Below, one piece after another: positions 40,281 to 50,599 of a stretch of 64,000 nucleotides of DNA. Position 1 is the stretch's first letter; each line of letters begins with the position of its first letter. The DNA is from Bacteriovoracaceae bacterium (lineage in GTDB: Bacteria; Bdellovibrionota; Bacteriovoracia; Bacteriovoracales; Bacteriovoracaceae). Location: assembly GCA_947441615.1 (NCBI GenBank), contig CANEUH010000001.1:1-64000 (forward strand). The letters are read 5' to 3'. The translations under genes were made by a program, and so were the position numbers. Under the pieces are notes generated by a model, which was not told where the DNA came from, did not search any database, and saw nothing but the letters and a program-made list of their open reading frames with translations.

Positions 40281-42356
40281 ATGGATAGGTTTTTAGAGAA
40301 GCTCAAAATCTTTTCTCAAAATTCAGAACTAGCAGTCGCACTAGGATTGATCATCATCCTTGGGGTTATGGTTGTTCCATTACCTCCGGTGATTCTGGAT
40401 TTATTTTTAGCTTTTTCAATTGCAATCTCTATTGCGATTTTATTGATGTCTGTTTATGCGAAAAAGCCTCTCGATTTCTCGACTTTTCCAACCATCCTTT
40501 TGATTACGACTCTTTTAAGACTCTCACTTAACGTGGCTTCAACAAGAAATATTCTTCTAAACGGTGCTACCGATGGAACGAAAGCTGCTGGTCACATTAT
40601 CGAAGCTTTCGGGGAATTTGTTGTTGGTGGTAACTACGCAGTGGGGATTATTATCTTCATGATTTTAGTTGTTATTAACTTTATCGTTATTACAAAGGGT
40701 GCTGGTAGGGTAGCTGAAGTCAGTGCACGATTCACTTTAGATGCAATGCCTGGTAAGCAAATGGCGATTGATGCAGATTTAAATGCTGGTCTGATTGATG
40801 ACAAAGAGGCCAAAAGACGTCGAGCTGAAGTGGCTCAGGAAGCAGATTTTTATGGATCGATGGATGGTGCTTCTAAGTTCGTACGAGGAGATGCGATTGC
40901 TGGGATTCTCATTACTGCGATTAACATTGTTGGCGGTATTATTGTAGGTGTGGCCCAACAAGATATGGCCTTCTCAGATGCAGCAAGAACTTTTACTCTC
41001 TTAACCGTTGGTGATGGTCTGATTGCTCAGATTCCTGCCCTGATTATTTCAACAGCTGCCGGTATTATTACAACCAGAAACTCAAATTCAGAGGCCCTCG
41101 GTAAGCAAGTGAACGAAGAGTTCACGGCACATCCAAAAGCTTTTTACATTACGGCCGGAGCGATTTCATTTTTTGGACTTATTCCAGGATTTCCGGCGCT
41201 TCCATTTTTTATGATTGGTGGTCTTATTGGTTACGCTGGATTTAAGATTGAGCAGAATAAGGAACTCGCAAAAGTTGCGGCTTCAACAACGGCTGTTGAA
41301 GAAACCAAAGCCAAGAGTGAGACTCTTGAGTCACTTCTTCCTGTGGAACTTGTTCAACTTGAAGTTGGATACGGGATTGTGAACATTGTGGATGCTGAAC
41401 AGAACGGTGATCTTCTTGAGAGGATCTCTCATATTCGTAAACAATTTGTTCTTGATTGGGGTCTTATTATCCCTTCGGTTAGAATTAAGGACAATCTTGA
41501 ACTTAAACCTGGTGGGTACTCGATCAAGCTAAAGGGAGTCGAGATCGCCAAGGGTGAATTGATGTCTGATCACTTGATGGCGATGGATCCAGGGACAGTG
41601 ATTGAGCAAATGGAAGGAATCGAAACGAAAGAGCCTGTCTTTGGTCTTCCTGCTATTTGGATTAATGATGATAAAAAAGACGAAGCTCAATACAATGGCT
41701 ATACCGTTGTAGATCTTTCTACGATTGTGGCGACTCACTTAACTGAAGTTCTTAAGGCGAATCTTTCTGAACTCTTTGGACGTCAAGAATTAGTTAAAGT
41801 TCTCGATACATTTAAAGAAGAAAATCCAAAAGTTGTGACAGACCTTGTTCCGGATATTATGCCACTTGGAACAGTGCTCAAGGTTCTTCAGGGACTCTTA
41901 CGAGAAGGTGTTTCCGTTAGAGATCTTAGAACAATTCTTGAAACACTTGCTGAATTTGGAACTTCAACAAAAGATGCGGATGCTCTTTGTGAATACGTTC
42001 GCCAGGCACTTTATAGAACGATTACTGAAAAAATTAAAGGCTCTCAAGGCGATGTTCCGTTATTTACTCTCGATAGAGTGCTTGAGGAAACTGTCGCTCG
42101 CTCAATCATCCAAACGGACCAGGGCTCACAATTAAATCTTGACCCGAAAGTCACCCAGACAATTCTGGCATCACTGAATGAAAAAATTGAAGAAGCGACT
42201 TCCCAGGGTGAAAAGATGGTTGTTCTGTGTTCTCCCGTGATTCGTCGTCATTTCAAGCGCTTGACTGAGAAATTCATTCCCAACCTGATGGTCGTTAGTC
42301 ATAATGAATTAAGTCCGGAAGTTAATATTAGATCTCTTGGTACAGTGAGGCTGTAA
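40281..42356 (+). CDS. flhA: Flagellar export apparatus protein FlhA
   Basis: The 691-residue protein has eight N-terminal membrane helices and the strongly conserved loop RVAEVSARFTLDAMPGKQMA, then ADLNAGLIDDKEAKRRR, before a large cytoplasmic ring domain that receives export cargo. The length is normal. It lies 28 bp after flhB. Confidence 0.97.
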   Translation: MDRFLEKLKIFSQNSELAVALGLIIILGVMVVPLPPVILDLFLAFSIAISIAILLMSVYAKKPLDFSTFPTILLITTLLRLSLNVASTRNILLNGATDGTKAAGHIIEAFGEFVVGGNYAVGIIIFMILVVINFIVITKGAGRVAEVSARFTLDAMPGKQMAIDADLNAGLIDDKEAKRRRAEVAQEADFYGSMDGASKFVRGDAIAGILITAINIVGGIIVGVAQQDMAFSDAARTFTLLTVGDGLIAQIPALIISTAAGIITTRNSNSEALGKQVNEEFTAHPKAFYITAGAISFFGLIPGFPALPFFMIGGLIGYAGFKIEQNKELAKVAASTTAVEETKAKSETLESLLPVELVQLEVGYGIVNIVDAEQNGDLLERISHIRKQFVLDWGLIIPSVRIKDNLELKPGGYSIKLKGVEIAKGELMSDHLMAMDPGTVIEQMEGIETKEPVFGLPAIWINDDKKDEAQYNGYTVVDLSTIVATHLTEVLKANLSELFGRQELVKVLDTFKEENPKVVTDLVPDIMPLGTVLKVLQGLLREGVSVRDLRTILETLAEFGTSTKDADALCEYVRQALYRTITEKIKGSQGDVPLFTLDRVLEETVARSIIQTDQGSQLNLDPKVTQTILASLNEKIEEATSQGEKMVVLCSPVIRRHFKRLTEKFIPNLMVVSHNELSPEVNIRSLGTVRL

Positions 42357-42360
42357 TTAA

Positions 42361-43911
42361 ATGTTTGTTAAGAAATTCGAAGCAGACACATTAGAAGAAG
42401 CGCTTAAAGCGGTCAAAGTTGAACTTGGGCCTGATGCGATTATTTTAAAAACAGTAACTAATAATGGGATTAAAGGTGCTTTTAAGAAAAAGCGCATCGA
42501 GATCACGGCCGCAATCTCAGAGAAGAGTTTTGAGAAGAAGGCAAAGGTGGATAAAGTCTTGAACACAGATCAAAAAGAAGCTTTTTACCAAAAACCTGCA
42601 AACGTCATCAAAGAGACAATTACAAAATATAATGGTCCTGAAACGACTTCAGGCTCAGGCTCAGGCTATGGATCAATGGGATTAAACAAAGTTGTTAATA
42701 CTATTGCGAAGGGATCGGCAGGGCTCTCTGATATCACGAACAAAACCTCAGCGATGATAAAAAATAGTCTTGATGATTTTTTAACCGATGGAGATGAGTC
42801 TGCTTTTGATATCGATTCAGCAGATGAAACACCAATAAAAAAATCTTCGAGTCGTGGTAAATATTCTGAACCACCAGCTCAAGAAATGCCAGCTCCTGCC
42901 CAGAGAGTAAAGCAAGTCGCTCGAGCGGTTGTAGAGGATAGTGTTGAAATCTCGCAGGGATCTCAACGAGACCAGCGTCCTCAAACCCAAGCACCCCAGA
43001 CAGGGGTCGTGAGCCGTGAAGCTTATAGTGAATTAAAGCAAGAACTCCGTACCACCCAACATAAAATGGAACTTCTTGAGCAAAAGATTTTAGAACTAAG
43101 CCAGAACTATCAATTCAATCAGAAGCATTTAAATGAAGCGAAGGGCATTTTTCAACTTCGAACGACTCTCAGGACACTTGACGTCGATGAGGCCCATATT
43201 ATGGAGCTTATCAAAAAAGCGAACTATGAGTTATCAAAAGAGGATCTCGAAAATCCAGATGTGATTTTTGAATTCGCTCTACAAGAGATGGCAAGCACCA
43301 TCAATACGGCCATTCCACTTTTTGCAAAAATTGAAAATGGAGACCCTGTCGTAACAGTGCTGCTTTCTGAAGCAGCATCAGGACAGTCAACCATGGGAAC
43401 AAAAATTGCTGTTCTTAAAAAAGATGTTGTACTTGTTCAATTCTCTCAGGATGCGCAGAACAATGCTTCGACCGATTTTGCAGCTCAGGTTTTTGGGATA
43501 AAGATCGAAAAAGTACAAAATTTTTCTGAAGTGGTCGGACTTTGCCGAAAAGCCATTGAAGGCGGCAAATCTGTCCTCGTGGATGTGCGGCTAAACAATA
43601 AGTCTACGGATGAAACAAAAAAATTCATTGAGACTCTTAAACGTGGTTTTCAGCACGTAGAAGTCCTATGCACACTTTCTGCAATTCATTCAGAACTTTA
43701 TAATCGAAAAATAATTGCCCGTTACAAAGATATTGCTGACGGTGTTATCATTTCTCATGTGGATCTCTGTATGAATTTTGGAGCTCTTTTCAACGTTCAT
43801 AAGTCCCAGAATAAGCTCCCTTTGAAATTCTTTGGAACTGGACCAGTGGTCCCCGATGATATCGAAGGAGCAACAGCTGAAAGATTGATGGCCGGTCTCT
43901 TTCAGTTTTAA
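42361..43911 (+). CDS. flhF: FlhF homologue with degenerate GTPase motifs
   Basis: The N-terminus (MFVKKFEADTLEEALKAVKV, then ELGPDAIILKT) and the end (PLKFFGTGPVVPDDIEGATA, then ERLMAGLF) are clearly FlhF, an SRP-type GTPase that places polar flagella. A long low-complexity linker and an SRP N-domain-like helical part lie between. The expected G motifs are gone: P-loop GxTGxGKTT reads SEAASGQSTMG (about residue 337), DTAGR reads DVRLNN, and TKxD reads SHVDL. It probably cannot bind GTP in the usual way. The gene sits 4 bp after flhA and before flhG, so its position is standard. Confidence 0.82.
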   Translation: MFVKKFEADTLEEALKAVKVELGPDAIILKTVTNNGIKGAFKKKRIEITAAISEKSFEKKAKVDKVLNTDQKEAFYQKPANVIKETITKYNGPETTSGSGSGYGSMGLNKVVNTIAKGSAGLSDITNKTSAMIKNSLDDFLTDGDESAFDIDSADETPIKKSSSRGKYSEPPAQEMPAPAQRVKQVARAVVEDSVEISQGSQRDQRPQTQAPQTGVVSREAYSELKQELRTTQHKMELLEQKILELSQNYQFNQKHLNEAKGIFQLRTTLRTLDVDEAHIMELIKKANYELSKEDLENPDVIFEFALQEMASTINTAIPLFAKIENGDPVVTVLLSEAASGQSTMGTKIAVLKKDVVLVQFSQDAQNNASTDFAAQVFGIKIEKVQNFSEVVGLCRKAIEGGKSVLVDVRLNNKSTDETKKFIETLKRGFQHVEVLCTLSAIHSELYNRKIIARYKDIADGVIISHVDLCMNFGALFNVHKSQNKLPLKFFGTGPVVPDDIEGATAERLMAGLFQF

Positions 43912-43945: not shown

Positions 43946-44872
43946 ATGTCAGATCAAAATCAGAAGAAACTTGGTGCAAGAAACAGGAGGTTTATGCACA
44001 AGACAAGCGAATGGTTGCAGTCGTTCAGCTCAATCCGTAATGAATCAAAAATTCCTGAATTAATTCGTGAGAACGCATTCTCATGTACTAAGATTTCAAT
44101 AACAGGTGGAAAGGGTGGAGTCGGAAAAACTTCGATTGCTCTGAAAACAGCTCAAGAATTTGCTTCAGCCGGATTTAAGACATTACTGATTGATTGTGAT
44201 TCTAATCTTTCAAATACAGCAATTAAATTAGGTCTTCCATTAGAGAATAAGTTTGAAAAAATCTTATCAGGCGAGATGAATTTCGATGAGTGTCTCATCC
44301 GTCGTGGAAACTTTCATCTACTTCCTGCATGCAATGGCTCTGTGGAATTATTTGAATCTAAATTAAATTTTGATGAAGTGATTATTGATATCATCACTTC
44401 ACATGAGCACGAATACGATTACATTCTTCTTGATTGTCCTGCGGGAGTCGCTAGAGAAGCCCTTACTTTAAATGCTTATTGTGATCACAGATGGATTGTG
44501 GTGACTCCAGATAAATCTTCAATCACTGATTCTTATTCGCTCGTAAAACTTTTATCTCAGCGTTTTGGAATCAAAGAAAATCACCTCCTCGTGAATATGT
44601 ATCAGAATGAAAAACAATTTCAAAAAGTCGTCTCAACCTTGAGCGAAACCATCGAGAATTTCCTTGGAGCGAGAACTATGATCCTCGGAGGTATTCAAAA
44701 GTACGATGTATCAGCTGAAGGGTTTGATACTTTTTTCCTCTCTGAAGGCAAAAATGAATTTCACCGGAACTTCGTTAAACTTTTATTAGGGTTCACCGAA
44801 AAAGTAGGTGGACCACTGATCGCTCAAAAAAAGAGCGTAAGTCAGATGGCCTACGAACACGACGTTCACTAA
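43946..44872 (+). CDS. flhG: Flagellar number regulator FlhG (FleN/MinD-like ATPase)
   Basis: The 308-residue protein has the deviant Walker A ISITGGKGGVGKTS near residue 55, LLIDCDSNLSNTAIKLGLP and YDYILLDCPAG, as in the MinD/FlhG family. FlhG limits flagellar number and activates FlhF through an N-terminal DQ-type helix; here MSDQNQKKL may be that element. A strong AGGAGG before an internal ATG (43,994) offers a shorter start lacking it. Confidence 0.9.
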   Translation: MSDQNQKKLGARNRRFMHKTSEWLQSFSSIRNESKIPELIRENAFSCTKISITGGKGGVGKTSIALKTAQEFASAGFKTLLIDCDSNLSNTAIKLGLPLENKFEKILSGEMNFDECLIRRGNFHLLPACNGSVELFESKLNFDEVIIDIITSHEHEYDYILLDCPAGVAREALTLNAYCDHRWIVVTPDKSSITDSYSLVKLLSQRFGIKENHLLVNMYQNEKQFQKVVSTLSETIENFLGARTMILGGIQKYDVSAEGFDTFFLSEGKNEFHRNFVKLLLGFTEKVGGPLIAQKKSVSQMAYEHDVH

Positions 44873-44899: not shown

Positions 44900-45685
44900 A
44901 TGTCATCACTTACGGCCAAACTTAAAAATTTAAAAGACTACCGCTCAACAGTTGATCCAAAAGTTAAAGACGAGATCATCCTTGAGTACGCTCCCCTTGT
45001 TCGTTACATTGCTCAAAAAATTGCTTCAAGACTTCCACCGAATATTGAACTAGATGACATGATTTCATGCGGTGTGATCGGTCTTATGGATGCGATTGAA
45101 AAATTTGATCCATCTCGTGATAACAAATTCAAAACTTATGCAGAATTCCGTATCAGAGGAGCGATTCTTGATGAACTTCGCTCGCAAGACTGGGTTCCTC
45201 GTTCAGTTCGTGAAAAAGCAAAAGTTGTTGAAAAAGCTTATGCCCAACTAGAAAAAGATTTTGGTCGTCCAGCAACAGATGAAGAGATGTGCGAGCATCT
45301 TCAGTGCTCAATGGATGAATTCCATGAGCTTATTAATAAATCAAAATCAGTGTCGCTCATGAATATTGACGATGCAGCGACTATGAGTAAGGGCGATAAA
45401 AAACTCATGGTGTCTCTTATGGAGACATCAAGAGGTGCCAACCCACAAACTGCTGTCGGTTATAAACGCGCCCAAGAAATCATTAAAGACGGAATCAAAA
45501 CTCTTCCAGAAAAACAGCGTTTAGTTCTCTCACTTTATTATTTTGAAGATCTAAACCTAAAAGAAATTGGCCAGGTACTAGACGTTACTGAGTCTCGGGT
45601 TTCACAGCTTCACACTCAAGCGATTCTAAAACTTAAGGCAAAACTTCGTAATCAATTTGAATCCTATGAGGATTTGGCGAGCTAA
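44900..45685 (+). CDS. fliA: Flagellar sigma factor FliA (sigma-28)
   Basis: The 261-residue protein has sigma regions 2 (YAPLVRYIAQKIASRLPPNI, ELDDMISCGVIGLMDAIEKF, RIRGAILDELRSQDWVPRSV), 3, and 4 (LPEKQRLVLSLYYFEDLNLK, then EIGQVLDVTESRVSQLHTQA). It directs RNA polymerase to late flagellar and motility promoters. A possible target promoter lies at 23,458. It is the last gene of the operon. Confidence 0.96.
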   Translation: MSSLTAKLKNLKDYRSTVDPKVKDEIILEYAPLVRYIAQKIASRLPPNIELDDMISCGVIGLMDAIEKFDPSRDNKFKTYAEFRIRGAILDELRSQDWVPRSVREKAKVVEKAYAQLEKDFGRPATDEEMCEHLQCSMDEFHELINKSKSVSLMNIDDAATMSKGDKKLMVSLMETSRGANPQTAVGYKRAQEIIKDGIKTLPEKQRLVLSLYYFEDLNLKEIGQVLDVTESRVSQLHTQAILKLKAKLRNQFESYEDLAS

Positions 45686-45747: not shown

Positions 45748-45823
45748 TAATGCAGGACTATCCAATCCATTCATTTATGTCGGACAATTAACTATTGGAA
45801 AAGACTTTCAAAGGGTGACTTCA

Positions 45824-48118
45824 ATGGATTGGAAAAAAACCTTTAATCGCGGACAGTGGGTCATACACAGCATTTTTATCATTGCTGTGGTGATTGGGAT
45901 TAGTTCGACAATTTTTGCACTACGCTTAAATCATCTACAAAGCACAGAGGAGGAGCGAGGATTAAAAATTAATTCTCTTATCCACCACCTGAAAAAAGAT
46001 ATGAGCTTTGAAAAGATTGGTAAGCTCCTCTCTTGGGCAGAGTCTGATAAGGCGAATGATAAAATCCGAGAACTTTCTCAGAAAATTGCAGAAACAGAAG
46101 AGTTACTAGAGATTAAGGCCTCCGAGAGCTTATCTCTCGGAATGCGTACTTTTAATCGATTGATTAACAACACTTCTGGCATGTCAGACCCTTCTGATGC
46201 ACTGAAAGTTCTTAATTCCAAGGTCAATGGTCTACACGAAGTTGCAGAAACAAAAAAATATATAAATGTAGAGCTCATTTCAGAAAGAATGAAAGAAAGA
46301 CTTGATCAGTTGAATTCGAAAAATGTTGGTCATTCAATCCAGGTTAGCTATCTACGTTCTGATATAAAAAGATTAGAGCAACTTGTCTCCACATCAACAC
46401 TTAAAGATGCTGAAAAAGACGCTTTAAAAGATCGATTAATTTCAATGAGTAATGAAATTGAATTACTTTCTAATCTAAACTCTCAATCTCGAGATCTTAA
46501 ATCTCATGTCACTCAGGCGTCTCTTGCTCTGTCTCAGTGGATGATTGATGTCGATAAGAAGGCGAATGATCTTCAGGGCATGCGATTTGAAAAGCAAAAT
46601 CAACTTGTTCTCATGTTGGCCGGAATGGTGGCATTTATGGTCCTTTCCTGGATAGGACTTGCTTATCTTTTTAGATGGCAAAAATCTCGAATGAGTGAAC
46701 AAGTCGAAATGGAAGTCAAAAGTGTTATTGAAAAAGGAATCATGGGAGATCAGCGATTCATGATGGATCAATACTCTGATTTAACCCGCACAGATATTAT
46801 TCGCCTACTGGATGAACTTAAATTGAAATTAAACTTAGGTTCAATGCTGCATACGGGATTACCATTTGCGGGTTGCTTGATAGACACCAATTTCAAACTA
46901 ACTTGGCACAATCATCTTTTCTTAGAACAGTTTTATCTTTCAGAAGAAGAGGTCACTTCAGATGCTTTTAATTGGGATTACTTGCGAGATTATTTAAATC
47001 TTGATGAGGATCCAGTTTATCAAGCCCTCGTGAATAAGATCGCTGGGATTTACCCCGTGAAAATTAAACAAGATGAATTTGCTCCCTCTCAGCCTTATGA
47101 AATGTATATCACGCCCATTAACGTCAATAGAGAAGATCGGGTGATGGTTTTCTTCTATCCTCTTGTTTCAGTTAAAGAAGCGATTGAGGAACAGGTTAAT
47201 CTTTCAAGAAATACTCTTGGACGTTTTGTTCAAAACTGGAATTCTGAAACATTAAACGAAGATATGATCCGCTTATTAGAGAAAGATTTTAAAAATAATA
47301 ATCTCGATGATCTTTATGAAGAACTCACAAAGTTGTTTGGACGAGTCAATGGTGAGAAGTCTGAATGCTTACAGTCAATTAATTTTCTTGAAAAAGAGAA
47401 TCACCTTCTTAAGTCTACGGTTTCAGAGATGAGATCAGTGCAAGAAGAGAAGAAAGAAATCATCAGACAAGAATTTCAACTGGCCAATGAACTTAGAGAC
47501 ACTTTCATCGGTTCTGTTGAAAGAGTCGAAACATTACTTTATATCAATAGAACAGTTCTGCAGCAGAATGATGATTTAAGAACTGAAGCGCAAAAGATGC
47601 AAAGCATCTCCAATGAAGTCACAAAGAAAGTGAAAGAAACTCAGGAGATCATGTCTCAGCTTGATAGTGTTAAAACTGACTATAAAAAATTAAAACTAGA
47701 GCTTCTTGAAGTTAAGGCGAAATTAATCTCGATAAATAATTCTCTATTCGCTCAGCTTCCTCCTTTTGATGAAACTCAGCAAAAACTGGCCAATCGCTAT
47801 AAGGATGAACTCGCGAGACTTGATTTTAATGTCACAACTTTTGATAAGAAGTTATCTCAGCTTGATGTTCTTCTTGTGAAGCTCCATATGATGCATGAAA
47901 AATCTCCTGTAGAGCAGACGAATTTTAATTTTTTAACATCTCAGAAAGATCATGAAATGAAGGAAGTCATCCTCAATATTCAAAAAGGTCAGGCCTTAGA
48001 AGAAACCAAGATTGTTGAAAATTTTAAATGTCTTCACATCCTCATGAAAAAAGATTTAAATAAAATTCATGAGGCGCAAGAGATCTCACGTGAATCTCTC
48101 GAGAATTTTCTCTCTTAA
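45824..48118 (+). CDS. Two-helix membrane protein with PAS-like domain and long coiled coils
   Basis: The ATG at 45,824 behind AAGGG is chosen; a GTG three codons earlier is in frame. The roughly 764-residue protein has a membrane helix near residue 20, a helical periplasmic domain of about 230 residues, and a second helix (LVLMLAGMVAFMVLSWIGLA). Next come a HAMP/linker helix, a PAS-like domain (FAGCLIDTNFKLTWHNHLFL, then VMVFFYPLVSVKEAIEEQVN) and about 250 residues of coiled coil. No kinase, cyclase or methyl-accepting hairpin is apparent, so it may signal through partner proteins. It is adjacent to, but separated by a terminator from, the flagellar operon. Confidence 0.75.
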   Translation: MDWKKTFNRGQWVIHSIFIIAVVIGISSTIFALRLNHLQSTEEERGLKINSLIHHLKKDMSFEKIGKLLSWAESDKANDKIRELSQKIAETEELLEIKASESLSLGMRTFNRLINNTSGMSDPSDALKVLNSKVNGLHEVAETKKYINVELISERMKERLDQLNSKNVGHSIQVSYLRSDIKRLEQLVSTSTLKDAEKDALKDRLISMSNEIELLSNLNSQSRDLKSHVTQASLALSQWMIDVDKKANDLQGMRFEKQNQLVLMLAGMVAFMVLSWIGLAYLFRWQKSRMSEQVEMEVKSVIEKGIMGDQRFMMDQYSDLTRTDIIRLLDELKLKLNLGSMLHTGLPFAGCLIDTNFKLTWHNHLFLEQFYLSEEEVTSDAFNWDYLRDYLNLDEDPVYQALVNKIAGIYPVKIKQDEFAPSQPYEMYITPINVNREDRVMVFFYPLVSVKEAIEEQVNLSRNTLGRFVQNWNSETLNEDMIRLLEKDFKNNNLDDLYEELTKLFGRVNGEKSECLQSINFLEKENHLLKSTVSEMRSVQEEKKEIIRQEFQLANELRDTFIGSVERVETLLYINRTVLQQNDDLRTEAQKMQSISNEVTKKVKETQEIMSQLDSVKTDYKKLKLELLEVKAKLISINNSLFAQLPPFDETQQKLANRYKDELARLDFNVTTFDKKLSQLDVLLVKLHMMHEKSPVEQTNFNFLTSQKDHEMKEVILNIQKGQALEETKIVENFKCLHILMKKDLNKIHEAQEISRESLENFLS

Positions 48119-49078: not shown

Positions 49079-50599
49079 ATGCTTAAGCCCCAGTGGTTAT
49101 TAATGGTTTCCCTTTTCTCATACTCAGCTTTTGCTGACGTAAGTTTTGAGGAAAAGAAAAATCGAGTTGAGTATCTCGAAGAGCTAAGTGGTCAAGCTAT
49201 CTCGATGAATATTGAGGCCTACAGACGCGAGCTCAACTATGAAAGAAGCAATATACCACTTGATAAGCGTGCTGAAATGGAGGCGAGTCTTTTGGCCGAG
49301 AAAATTACAGTTCAGGTTCAAAAGGCAATTGAAGCAGCAATGGTTGATAAAGGCTTTGAAGAAGCAGCCGAAGAAGTTAAAGCGGCCATTGAAAAAGATT
49401 TAGAACTCGTCGCCCCTGAACTTAGAGAAGAATTAAGAGCGATTTCATTAGAAACAATTGATCACTATAACAGAGGGGTTAATCGCCCAGTAACTGACCT
49501 CGTAGGTTTAGAAGATGCCATGCTTAAAGGTGTCCAAGACAGATCAAATTATTTGAATGTTGAAGGTGAACATAAGGAACTCGTATCAAAACTCGAGTCT
49601 TTAACGAGTCCTGTGGTTAATCTACAACCAACAGAATATGGATCGAAGGAAGAACTAATCGAGTCTTTAGTTTCTGAGCTTGAAAATTCTCGCTGGGTTT
49701 CAACATCAAATTTAACAATTAGAACAGATGAAATAACAAAGGTTGATTCAAGAGTCAGTCTTCAGTTGAAGGTTGAGTTCTTGGGAGTCGCAGTTGAAGC
49801 AGGTCCAACAATCGCCTTTACAAGAGTATTCAAAACGAATGCTACAATCATGGCCGAAGGACTATCGCCAGCACTCCTTTCTGATGGAAACTTTGATTTT
49901 GTTAAAAGAGATAAGCTAGGCCGAGCGATCAAAGATAACGGAAAATTTAAAAAGCGCTTCTTTTCATTTGCCTGTGACGCCTCTCTAGACTTTAACTCAG
50001 ACTATGCTGGTTCTGGTGGATTTTCTGTCGCTGGAATGGGAGGCGGGGCTTCTGTTACGAAGACCATTTCTCAAACGGTTAATTTAAGTTCAAGAAGAGT
50101 TGAAGTTCCTGAGTACATCGATGGAAAATCAGCGACAATAAAGTTTTTGAGCCAAATTTGTCATAATGATTTTTTAAGAGCAAAAGCAACAAGTGCATTG
50201 ACGATTGCGGACTCGCTAAATGTGATGATGAAAAACGTTGTTTCAGGACTAAGGTTTTCACACCCGAAAACAAAATGTGCAGTCGATACTCATTGTTATA
50301 ACTGGTTTAATAATGAAGTTATATCGCTCGCCCGAATTAAAAACTTCCCAAGATGTGTTGAAGAGAGAAGAGAGAAGTATCGATCTTGTACACTTCGTGG
50401 CCTACAAGGGCAGAACTGTGCAGTGTTTGATTCTAAAGGTAAACAAGTTTCGGATGGTTTCTTTGAGTTTACTTGCGACGCTGGTCTAAAGTGTGTAAAG
50501 GTTCAGCAAGAGGGTTGGTTTAGAAACTGGGAACTCTACCAGTATGCGAAGGGAAGATGTATGCCAATTAATCCAAAAACGTATAAAAGCCCAATCTAA
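49079..50599 (+). CDS. Secreted protein of unknown function
   Basis: The 506-residue protein has a signal peptide (MLKPQWLLMVSLFSYSAFA). A helical N-terminal third follows (rich in E, K, A), then a beta-rich middle with glycine segments (SDYAGSGGFSVAGMGGGASV). The cysteine-rich end (KCAVDTHCYNWF, CVEERREKYRSC, NCAVFD, TCDAGLKCVKV) is probably disulfide-bonded. No known domain is recognised. An AGGAG site precedes the start. Confidence 0.75.
   Translation: MLKPQWLLMVSLFSYSAFADVSFEEKKNRVEYLEELSGQAISMNIEAYRRELNYERSNIPLDKRAEMEASLLAEKITVQVQKAIEAAMVDKGFEEAAEEVKAAIEKDLELVAPELREELRAISLETIDHYNRGVNRPVTDLVGLEDAMLKGVQDRSNYLNVEGEHKELVSKLESLTSPVVNLQPTEYGSKEELIESLVSELENSRWVSTSNLTIRTDEITKVDSRVSLQLKVEFLGVAVEAGPTIAFTRVFKTNATIMAEGLSPALLSDGNFDFVKRDKLGRAIKDNGKFKKRFFSFACDASLDFNSDYAGSGGFSVAGMGGGASVTKTISQTVNLSSRRVEVPEYIDGKSATIKFLSQICHNDFLRAKATSALTIADSLNVMMKNVVSGLRFSHPKTKCAVDTHCYNWFNNEVISLARIKNFPRCVEERREKYRSCTLRGLQGQNCAVFDSKGKQVSDGFFEFTCDAGLKCVKVQQEGWFRNWELYQYAKGRCMPINPKTYKSPI

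Follow-up and report, generated by a model that had tools for sequence, protein, structure and literature searches.

Loss of the P-loop lysine and other GTPase motifs from the flagellar protein FlhF throughout the order Bacteriovoracales

Introduction

FlhF is an SRP-type GTPase described in review as a GTP-dependent dimer, with GTP binding of importance for both the number and the place of flagella. The closest described proteins are the FlhF of Shewanella putrefaciens (structures 8r9r and 9en1) and of Bacillus subtilis (2px0 and 2px3), which share with the proteins studied here an N-terminal FliG-interaction (FID/B) domain, a linker, an NG fold and the gene order flhA-flhF-flhG-fliA, and which bind GTP/GDP through the motifs GxxxxGK[ST], DTxR, DTAGR and TKxD. 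Excerpts of work on S. putrefaciens report that the first 60 residues of FlhF bind FliG and that binding of the NG domain to HubP is unaffected by GDP or GTP (PMC11236974). In Vibrio alginolyticus, according to the part of the article consulted, P-loop and G4 mutations of FlhF reduced or abolished polar FlhF and flagella, the K305A (Lys to Ala) variant had a partial effect with some flagella still formed, and a hydrolysis mutant was normal (PMC6092412). For Pseudomonas aeruginosa, extracts of the published text state that FlhF is recruited polewards through its G domain and that GDP disturbs FlhF-FliG binding (PMC12713375). The partner protein FlhG/FleN (4rz3 and 5j1j) has a MinD-type fold with an intact Walker A motif and a DQAxxLR enhancer helix.

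Here we analyzed a stretch of 64,000 nucleotides from a Bacteriovoracaceae bacterium (hereafter, the window), in which a sequence-only reading had noticed an FlhF with replaced GTPase motifs, and compared its flagellar locus with homologues from the order and from other families of the phylum. The named records in the group of the window's genome are Bacteriovorax, Halobacteriovorax and Bacteriovoracaceae, and all examined genomes of the order fall in one family.

Results

FlhF is encoded in an otherwise intact flagellar operon

Based on its operon position, its N-terminal FliG-binding domain and its predicted SRP-type NG fold, the ORF that follows flhA was identified as flhF (Table 1). The flhA-flhF-flhG-fliA order was detected in the window and in all 50 loci of the order with full flanks, in agreement with the earlier statement that the operon around flhF is otherwise intact.

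Table 1. Features of the flhF locus, with positions in the window.
Feature	Position	Strand	Basis or conservation
flhA	40281..42356	+	PF00771 match
flhF, 516 aa, pseudo-GTPase FlhF	42361..43911	+	intact ORF; order homologues; predicted SRP-type NG fold
FlhF N-terminal FliG-interaction (FID/B) domain, residues 1-60, kept	42361..42540	+	GP[DE]A conserved; 9en1 profile match
FlhF degenerate G1/P-loop SEAASGQST, residues 336-344, Lys to Gln at 342	43366..43392	+	Gln in 93/93 readable order sequences
FlhF degenerate G3 VLVDVRLNN, residues 405-413, for DTAGR; Asp 408 kept	43573..43599	+	Asp in 93/94
FlhF order-specific YNRK motif, residues 447-450, helix after strand 433-440	43699..43710	+	residue counts
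FlhF G4 ISHVD, residues 464-468, for TKxD; Asp 468 kept	43750..43764	+	Asp in 94/94
FlhF G5 region FGTGPVVPDD, residues 491-500, kept	43831..43860	+	G494 93/94, P498 91/94, D500 93/94
Shine-Dalgarno-like AGGAGG of flhG	43985..43990	+	sequence; conserved placement
flhG, MinD-type ATPase	43994..44872	+	likely start 43994, not 43946; fold matches to FleN 5j1j and FlhG 4rz3
FlhG WL motif (W7 L8), where DQAxxLR is expected	44012..44017	+	predicted helix 2-9
FlhG Walker A GKGGVGKT, intact	44108..44131	+	
FlhG DCDSN, residues 67-71, Gly to Asn in DxDxG	44192..44206	+	Asn in 88/89 of the order
fliA (sigma-28)	44900..45685	+	named from sequence and position; same place in 50/50 order loci with full flanks
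767-aa protein behind fliA	45815..48118	+	same place in 50/50 order loci
506-aa protein, likely signal peptide	49079..50599	+	same place in 10/50 order loci

By profile search, residues 1-60 of FlhF matched the solved FID (9en1, E 0.0031), with the sequence GPDAII conserved in this domain, and the C-terminal part matched B. subtilis FlhF (2px0, E 1.3e-7). The N-terminus and the VPDD end are conserved, as had been noticed from the window alone; in the G5 region with this end, Gly 494, Pro 498 and Asp 500 are kept in 91 to 93 of 94 order sequences. The window protein scored 50.7 bits against the curated FlhF model TIGR03499, below the cut-off of 174.15, and when searched alone matched no Pfam GTPase family; PF00448 (SRP54 GTPase) matched 30 of the 63 aligned FlhF members of the order. 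An AlphaFold2 model from these 63 rows reached a pLDDT of about 90 over the G domain, with a disordered linker. Its best solved matches were the FlhF structures 8r9r (Z 19.3), 2px3 (Z 19.2) and 2px0 (Z 19.1), with which FtsY (6fqd, Z 19.0) was tied, such that the fold alone cannot separate FlhF from FtsY; solved (p)ppGpp complexes of Ffh and FtsY were also among the fold matches. Single-sequence searches returned chance matches only, and influenza hemagglutinin in the profile search represented coiled-coil chance matches to the linker.

The 767-aa protein encoded behind fliA has two likely membrane helices near its N-terminus and a coiled-coil C-terminus, with no Pfam family above cut-off, and was found in 9 of 10 genomes of the order vs. 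0 of 20 from other families. It was considered as a pole anchor and rejected: it is conserved in the order yet also present in two order genomes that are devoid of FlhA, and is therefore not strictly flagellar. The 506-aa protein likewise had no Pfam match. Among known pole landmarks, the FimV core model TIGR03505 (HubP/FimV) matched in no genome, controls included, which renders this search uninformative, and DUF2802 (FipA) was detected in 3/3 Bdellovibrio-like genomes, 0/6 genomes of the order and 0/3 others.

A glutamine replaces the Walker A lysine throughout the order

The Walker A lysine position was occupied by Gln in 93 of 94 FlhF sequences of the order (from 93 genomes), the remaining one being unreadable on a truncated contig. 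The P-loop thus reads SxxxxGQ[ST] instead of GxxxxGK[ST], with Lys in none of the 93 readable sequences. By contrast, Lys was kept in 71/71 FlhF sequences from other families of the phylum, a set that covers 71 of 192 other-family genomes and was mostly chosen by match to the FlhF model and is hence biased towards intact P-loops. Repeats (L057, L061-L070 and L178) and a locus with a 100-base filler (L186) were dropped before counting. Within the named set, Gln 342 was invariant over 63 rows; a simple SxxxxGQ pattern was found in 78 of 80 named loci, and the two that escape it are within the 63 rows. Alignment of related FlhF sequences, which the sequence-only reading had proposed as a check, hence extends the replacement from one protein to the order.

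The other motifs were eroded to different extents. A G2-like pattern was detected in 2/88 FlhF of the order vs. 61/71 of other families, most of the P-loop glycines are gone, and the G4 Lys position holds Lys in 2/94. The initial claim that the P-loop, DTAGR and TKxD motifs are replaced was therefore correct for the P-loop Lys, DTAGR and the G4 Lys, to which G2 is now added, but it did not hold for the Asp residues of G3 (93/94) and G4 (94/94), which are kept. An alpha-1 Lys (Lys 348) is invariant as well (94/94). From these replacements, we consider it highly probable that the GTPase switch of FlhF has been lost.

Two irregularities were encountered in individual loci. The flhF copy at L117 and L239 (Halobacteriovorax sp. 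SP4097) has an in-frame stop, either a sequencing error or a broken gene. One assembly (G081, with 9% estimated contamination) carries two different pseudo-GTPase FlhF copies, L083 and L084, probably from two organisms.

The glutamine is fixed rather than random, and the G4 Asp, G5 Gly and alpha-1 Lys are invariant, which could mean that a ligand is still bound and would speak against a nucleotide-free adaptor. The ligand of FlhF would then be a guanine compound, be it GDP, GMP or an alarmone, bound in an atypical way, with Gln 342 taking the place of Lys and the base and phosphate edge retained by Asp 468, the GTG loop and Lys 348. The conservation of Asp 468 and Lys 348 (each 94/94), Gly 494 (93/94) and Gln 342 (93/93), the (p)ppGpp complexes among the fold matches and the flagella still formed by V. 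alginolyticus K305A, as given in the excerpt of PMC6092412, are in line with this. However, the FlhF of the order is without G2, DTAGR and the majority of the P-loop glycines. Ordinary FlhF shows the same invariance at the kept residues, whose role may be structural. We regard such binding as unlikely, though deserving of serious attention.

A distinct FlhF clade with order-specific residues

Seven residues were fixed in the order only (R396, R428, E445, Y447, N448, K450 and F490). Within the YNRK motif, Y was found in 90/94, N in 92/94 and K in 82/94 sequences; the positions are D/E, L/A and E/D in other families. In a quick tree with flagged long branches that included 36 of the 94 order rows, the FlhF proteins of the order grouped into a single clade (SH-aLRT 100), the stem of which was long at 2.34 changes per column. 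This long stem and the conserved surface of R396, R428, Y447, N448 and K450 would suit an FlhF with a changed role, serving the start of the basal body, number control or sheath formation and not flagellar placement. Against this reading, which we find improbable, the FliG-binding domain and operon position are kept and the published flagella are single and polar: excerpts of the respective articles report a single polar flagellum for Bacteriovorax sp. As-1 (PMC12642874) and H. marinus BE01 (PMC5760749), both strains being outside the genome set analyzed here.

A second, canonical flhF had been named as a finding that would count against the sequence-only reading, and the search for it revealed none. 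SRP54 matches above cut-off in the window's genome were FtsY and Ffh only (NCBI models), and the FlhF model cut-off was exceeded in 0/100 genomes of the order vs. 116/192 others. The one-contig genome G015 contained FtsY, Ffh and the pseudo-GTPase FlhF only. Extra PF00448 matches, which might have indicated a third GTPase, were in 6/6 genomes checked the FlhF of the order, mostly matched past the P-loop. The idea that the function is supplied by a canonical FlhF encoded at another locus is thus rejected from these searches for the order genomes covered and, even with the window's genome at 92% completeness, strikes us as very improbable.

An FlhF homologue was present in 119 of 129 order genomes searched. 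Of the ten genomes devoid of it, nine lacked FlhA as well and the remaining one breaks off at a truncated FlhA, which indicates that FlhF goes with the flagellum. The median dN/dS of the G domain was 0.038 (66 finite pairs of 78, with dS saturated in many FlhF pairs), consistent with strong purifying selection, and that of the N-terminal domain (residues 1-60) was 0.018. Although catalytic motifs are lost, a decaying flhF without function is refuted by this selection, by 56 invariant columns over 63 rows and by the presence of flhF in every flagellate genome examined, and we give it practically no credence.

FlhG is altered alongside FlhF

ORF callers would start FlhG at 43946 and so include 43946-43993; the conserved start is the Met at 43994, which is preceded by a Shine-Dalgarno-like site in 59 of 60 loci of the order and from which the protein begins MHKTSEWLQSF. 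It had been proposed that FlhG keeps a DQ-containing N-terminus that stimulates FlhF. This proposal is contradicted: the DQ (43952-43957) is upstream of the likely start and not conserved, and DQAxxLR was found in 0/88 readable FlhG of the order. Elsewhere DQAxxLR occurred in 10/49 FlhG, or 20/70 if any downstream frame is read. A DQ-like match on the order side (L059) was in another frame than flhG and was rejected.

In its place, a Trp-Leu pair was detected in 86 of 88 readable order FlhG vs. 0/49 elsewhere, and the strict pattern W[LR]x[ST] in 81 of the 88. FlhG was unreadable in six order loci (L024 among them) for the WL and DQ counts; L042 has no WL and L116 is masked. The FlhG alignment comprised 54 of 74 named FlhG, with L254 (WR) among those left out. 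A helix over residues 2-9 is predicted by the model with low confidence (pLDDT 53 for the block); the core of the model matched FleN 5j1j (Z 29.6) and FlhG 4rz3 (Z 28.1), as expected of a MinD-type fold. Walker A (GKGGVGK[ST]) was found in 88/89 FlhG of the order, and its retention in the window agrees with what was first noted there. The Gly of DxDxG was Asn in 88/89 order FlhG (1 unread) vs. Gly in 45/49 others. Thus, compared to FlhG/FleN, the FlhG of the order shares fold and Walker A but has the WL motif instead of the enhancer helix and DxDxN for DxDxG. At L024 (G002), the FlhG encoded beside a normal-looking pseudo-GTPase FlhF diverges in its Walker A (GSPGSGKT) and has neither GKGG nor WL.

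Motif erosion in relatives

DQAxxLR is frequent in the FlhG of relatives whose GTPase motifs are complete. Bdellovibrio and related families of the same phylum have, like the order, eroded G3 and G4 motifs, with DTAGR and often the G4 Lys lost, and FlhG mostly devoid of DQAxxLR; unlike the order, they keep the P-loop and its Lys. Judged from these sequences, part of the FlhF erosion is older than the loss of the P-loop, and this loss alone appears special to the order, as erosion of DTAGR and the G4 Lys also occurs in Bdellovibrio-like relatives with a P-loop Lys. DQAxxLR was found in 20/40 loci with the G4 Lys vs. 0/30 without it (Fisher p 1.3e-6); a tree-aware test left 3 independent pairs and no support, so the loss of DQAxxLR and the G4 Lys represents one or few events, with no evidence of coupling.

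Discussion

These results reveal that the pseudo-GTPase FlhF is real and order-wide, a variant of FlhF and not a new system, with P-loop Lys changed to Gln and G2 and G3 gone relative to S. putrefaciens and B. subtilis. Beyond what was first read from the window, the Gln change is fixed across the order, several GTPase residues are invariant, and FlhG is altered too. Pseudo-GTPases in general retain the GTPase fold without catalytic motifs; to our knowledge, no SRP-type GTPase has been described in which this condition is fixed across an entire order. Our literature search, to which many subscription papers were out of reach, found no paper on an FlhF devoid of its P-loop.

The kept tethering parts, together with the published NG-HubP, FID-FliG and polar-flagellum data, favour an FlhF that acts as an adaptor, its switch lost and timing left to the FlhG ATPase. 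We lean towards an adaptor at the pole, where its polar seat and lack of nucleotide binding are what we infer. The scaffold role suggested by the sequence-only reading fits the excerpted reports of NG-HubP binding with or without nucleotide and of N-terminal FliG binding (PMC11236974); the function itself stays conjectural. By analogy with the Vibrio GTP-binding mutants and the GDP effect in P. aeruginosa, an FlhF without a switch would not be expected to work. On balance we favour, with similar reserve, the view that FlhF became a pseudo-GTPase in the ancestor shared by the order, after which it would have served as a constant adaptor with number control on FlhG.

If FlhF is such an adaptor, it would no longer cycle through a GTP-dependent homodimer. 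Its N-terminal domain would hold FliG and its NG-like domain would be held at the pole by a landmark, so that the first basal body is built where FlhF ties FliG and pole together. Number control would fall to FlhG and its ATP cycle, and FlhG may hold on to FlhF by a new WL helix rather than act as a GTPase activator; direct contact between this helix and FlhF is a tentative suggestion. Equally tentative is the full scenario, in which a single conversion at the base of the order turned an SRP-type GTPase into an adaptor that is free of nucleotide yet continues to set one polar flagellum. FlhG would have been rebuilt alongside, with a WL helix replacing DQAxxLR and Asn replacing Gly in its switch, and the timing signal would have moved from GTP on FlhF to ATP on FlhG.

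An order that seemingly keeps one polar flagellum without the GTP motif is a natural experiment, in which tethering by FlhF may prove separable from its GTP switch. Its stepwise relatives, from full motifs through loss of G3/G4 and DQ to loss of the P-loop, would present the sequence in which a molecular switch is dismantled, and WL provides a testable new motif of FlhG.
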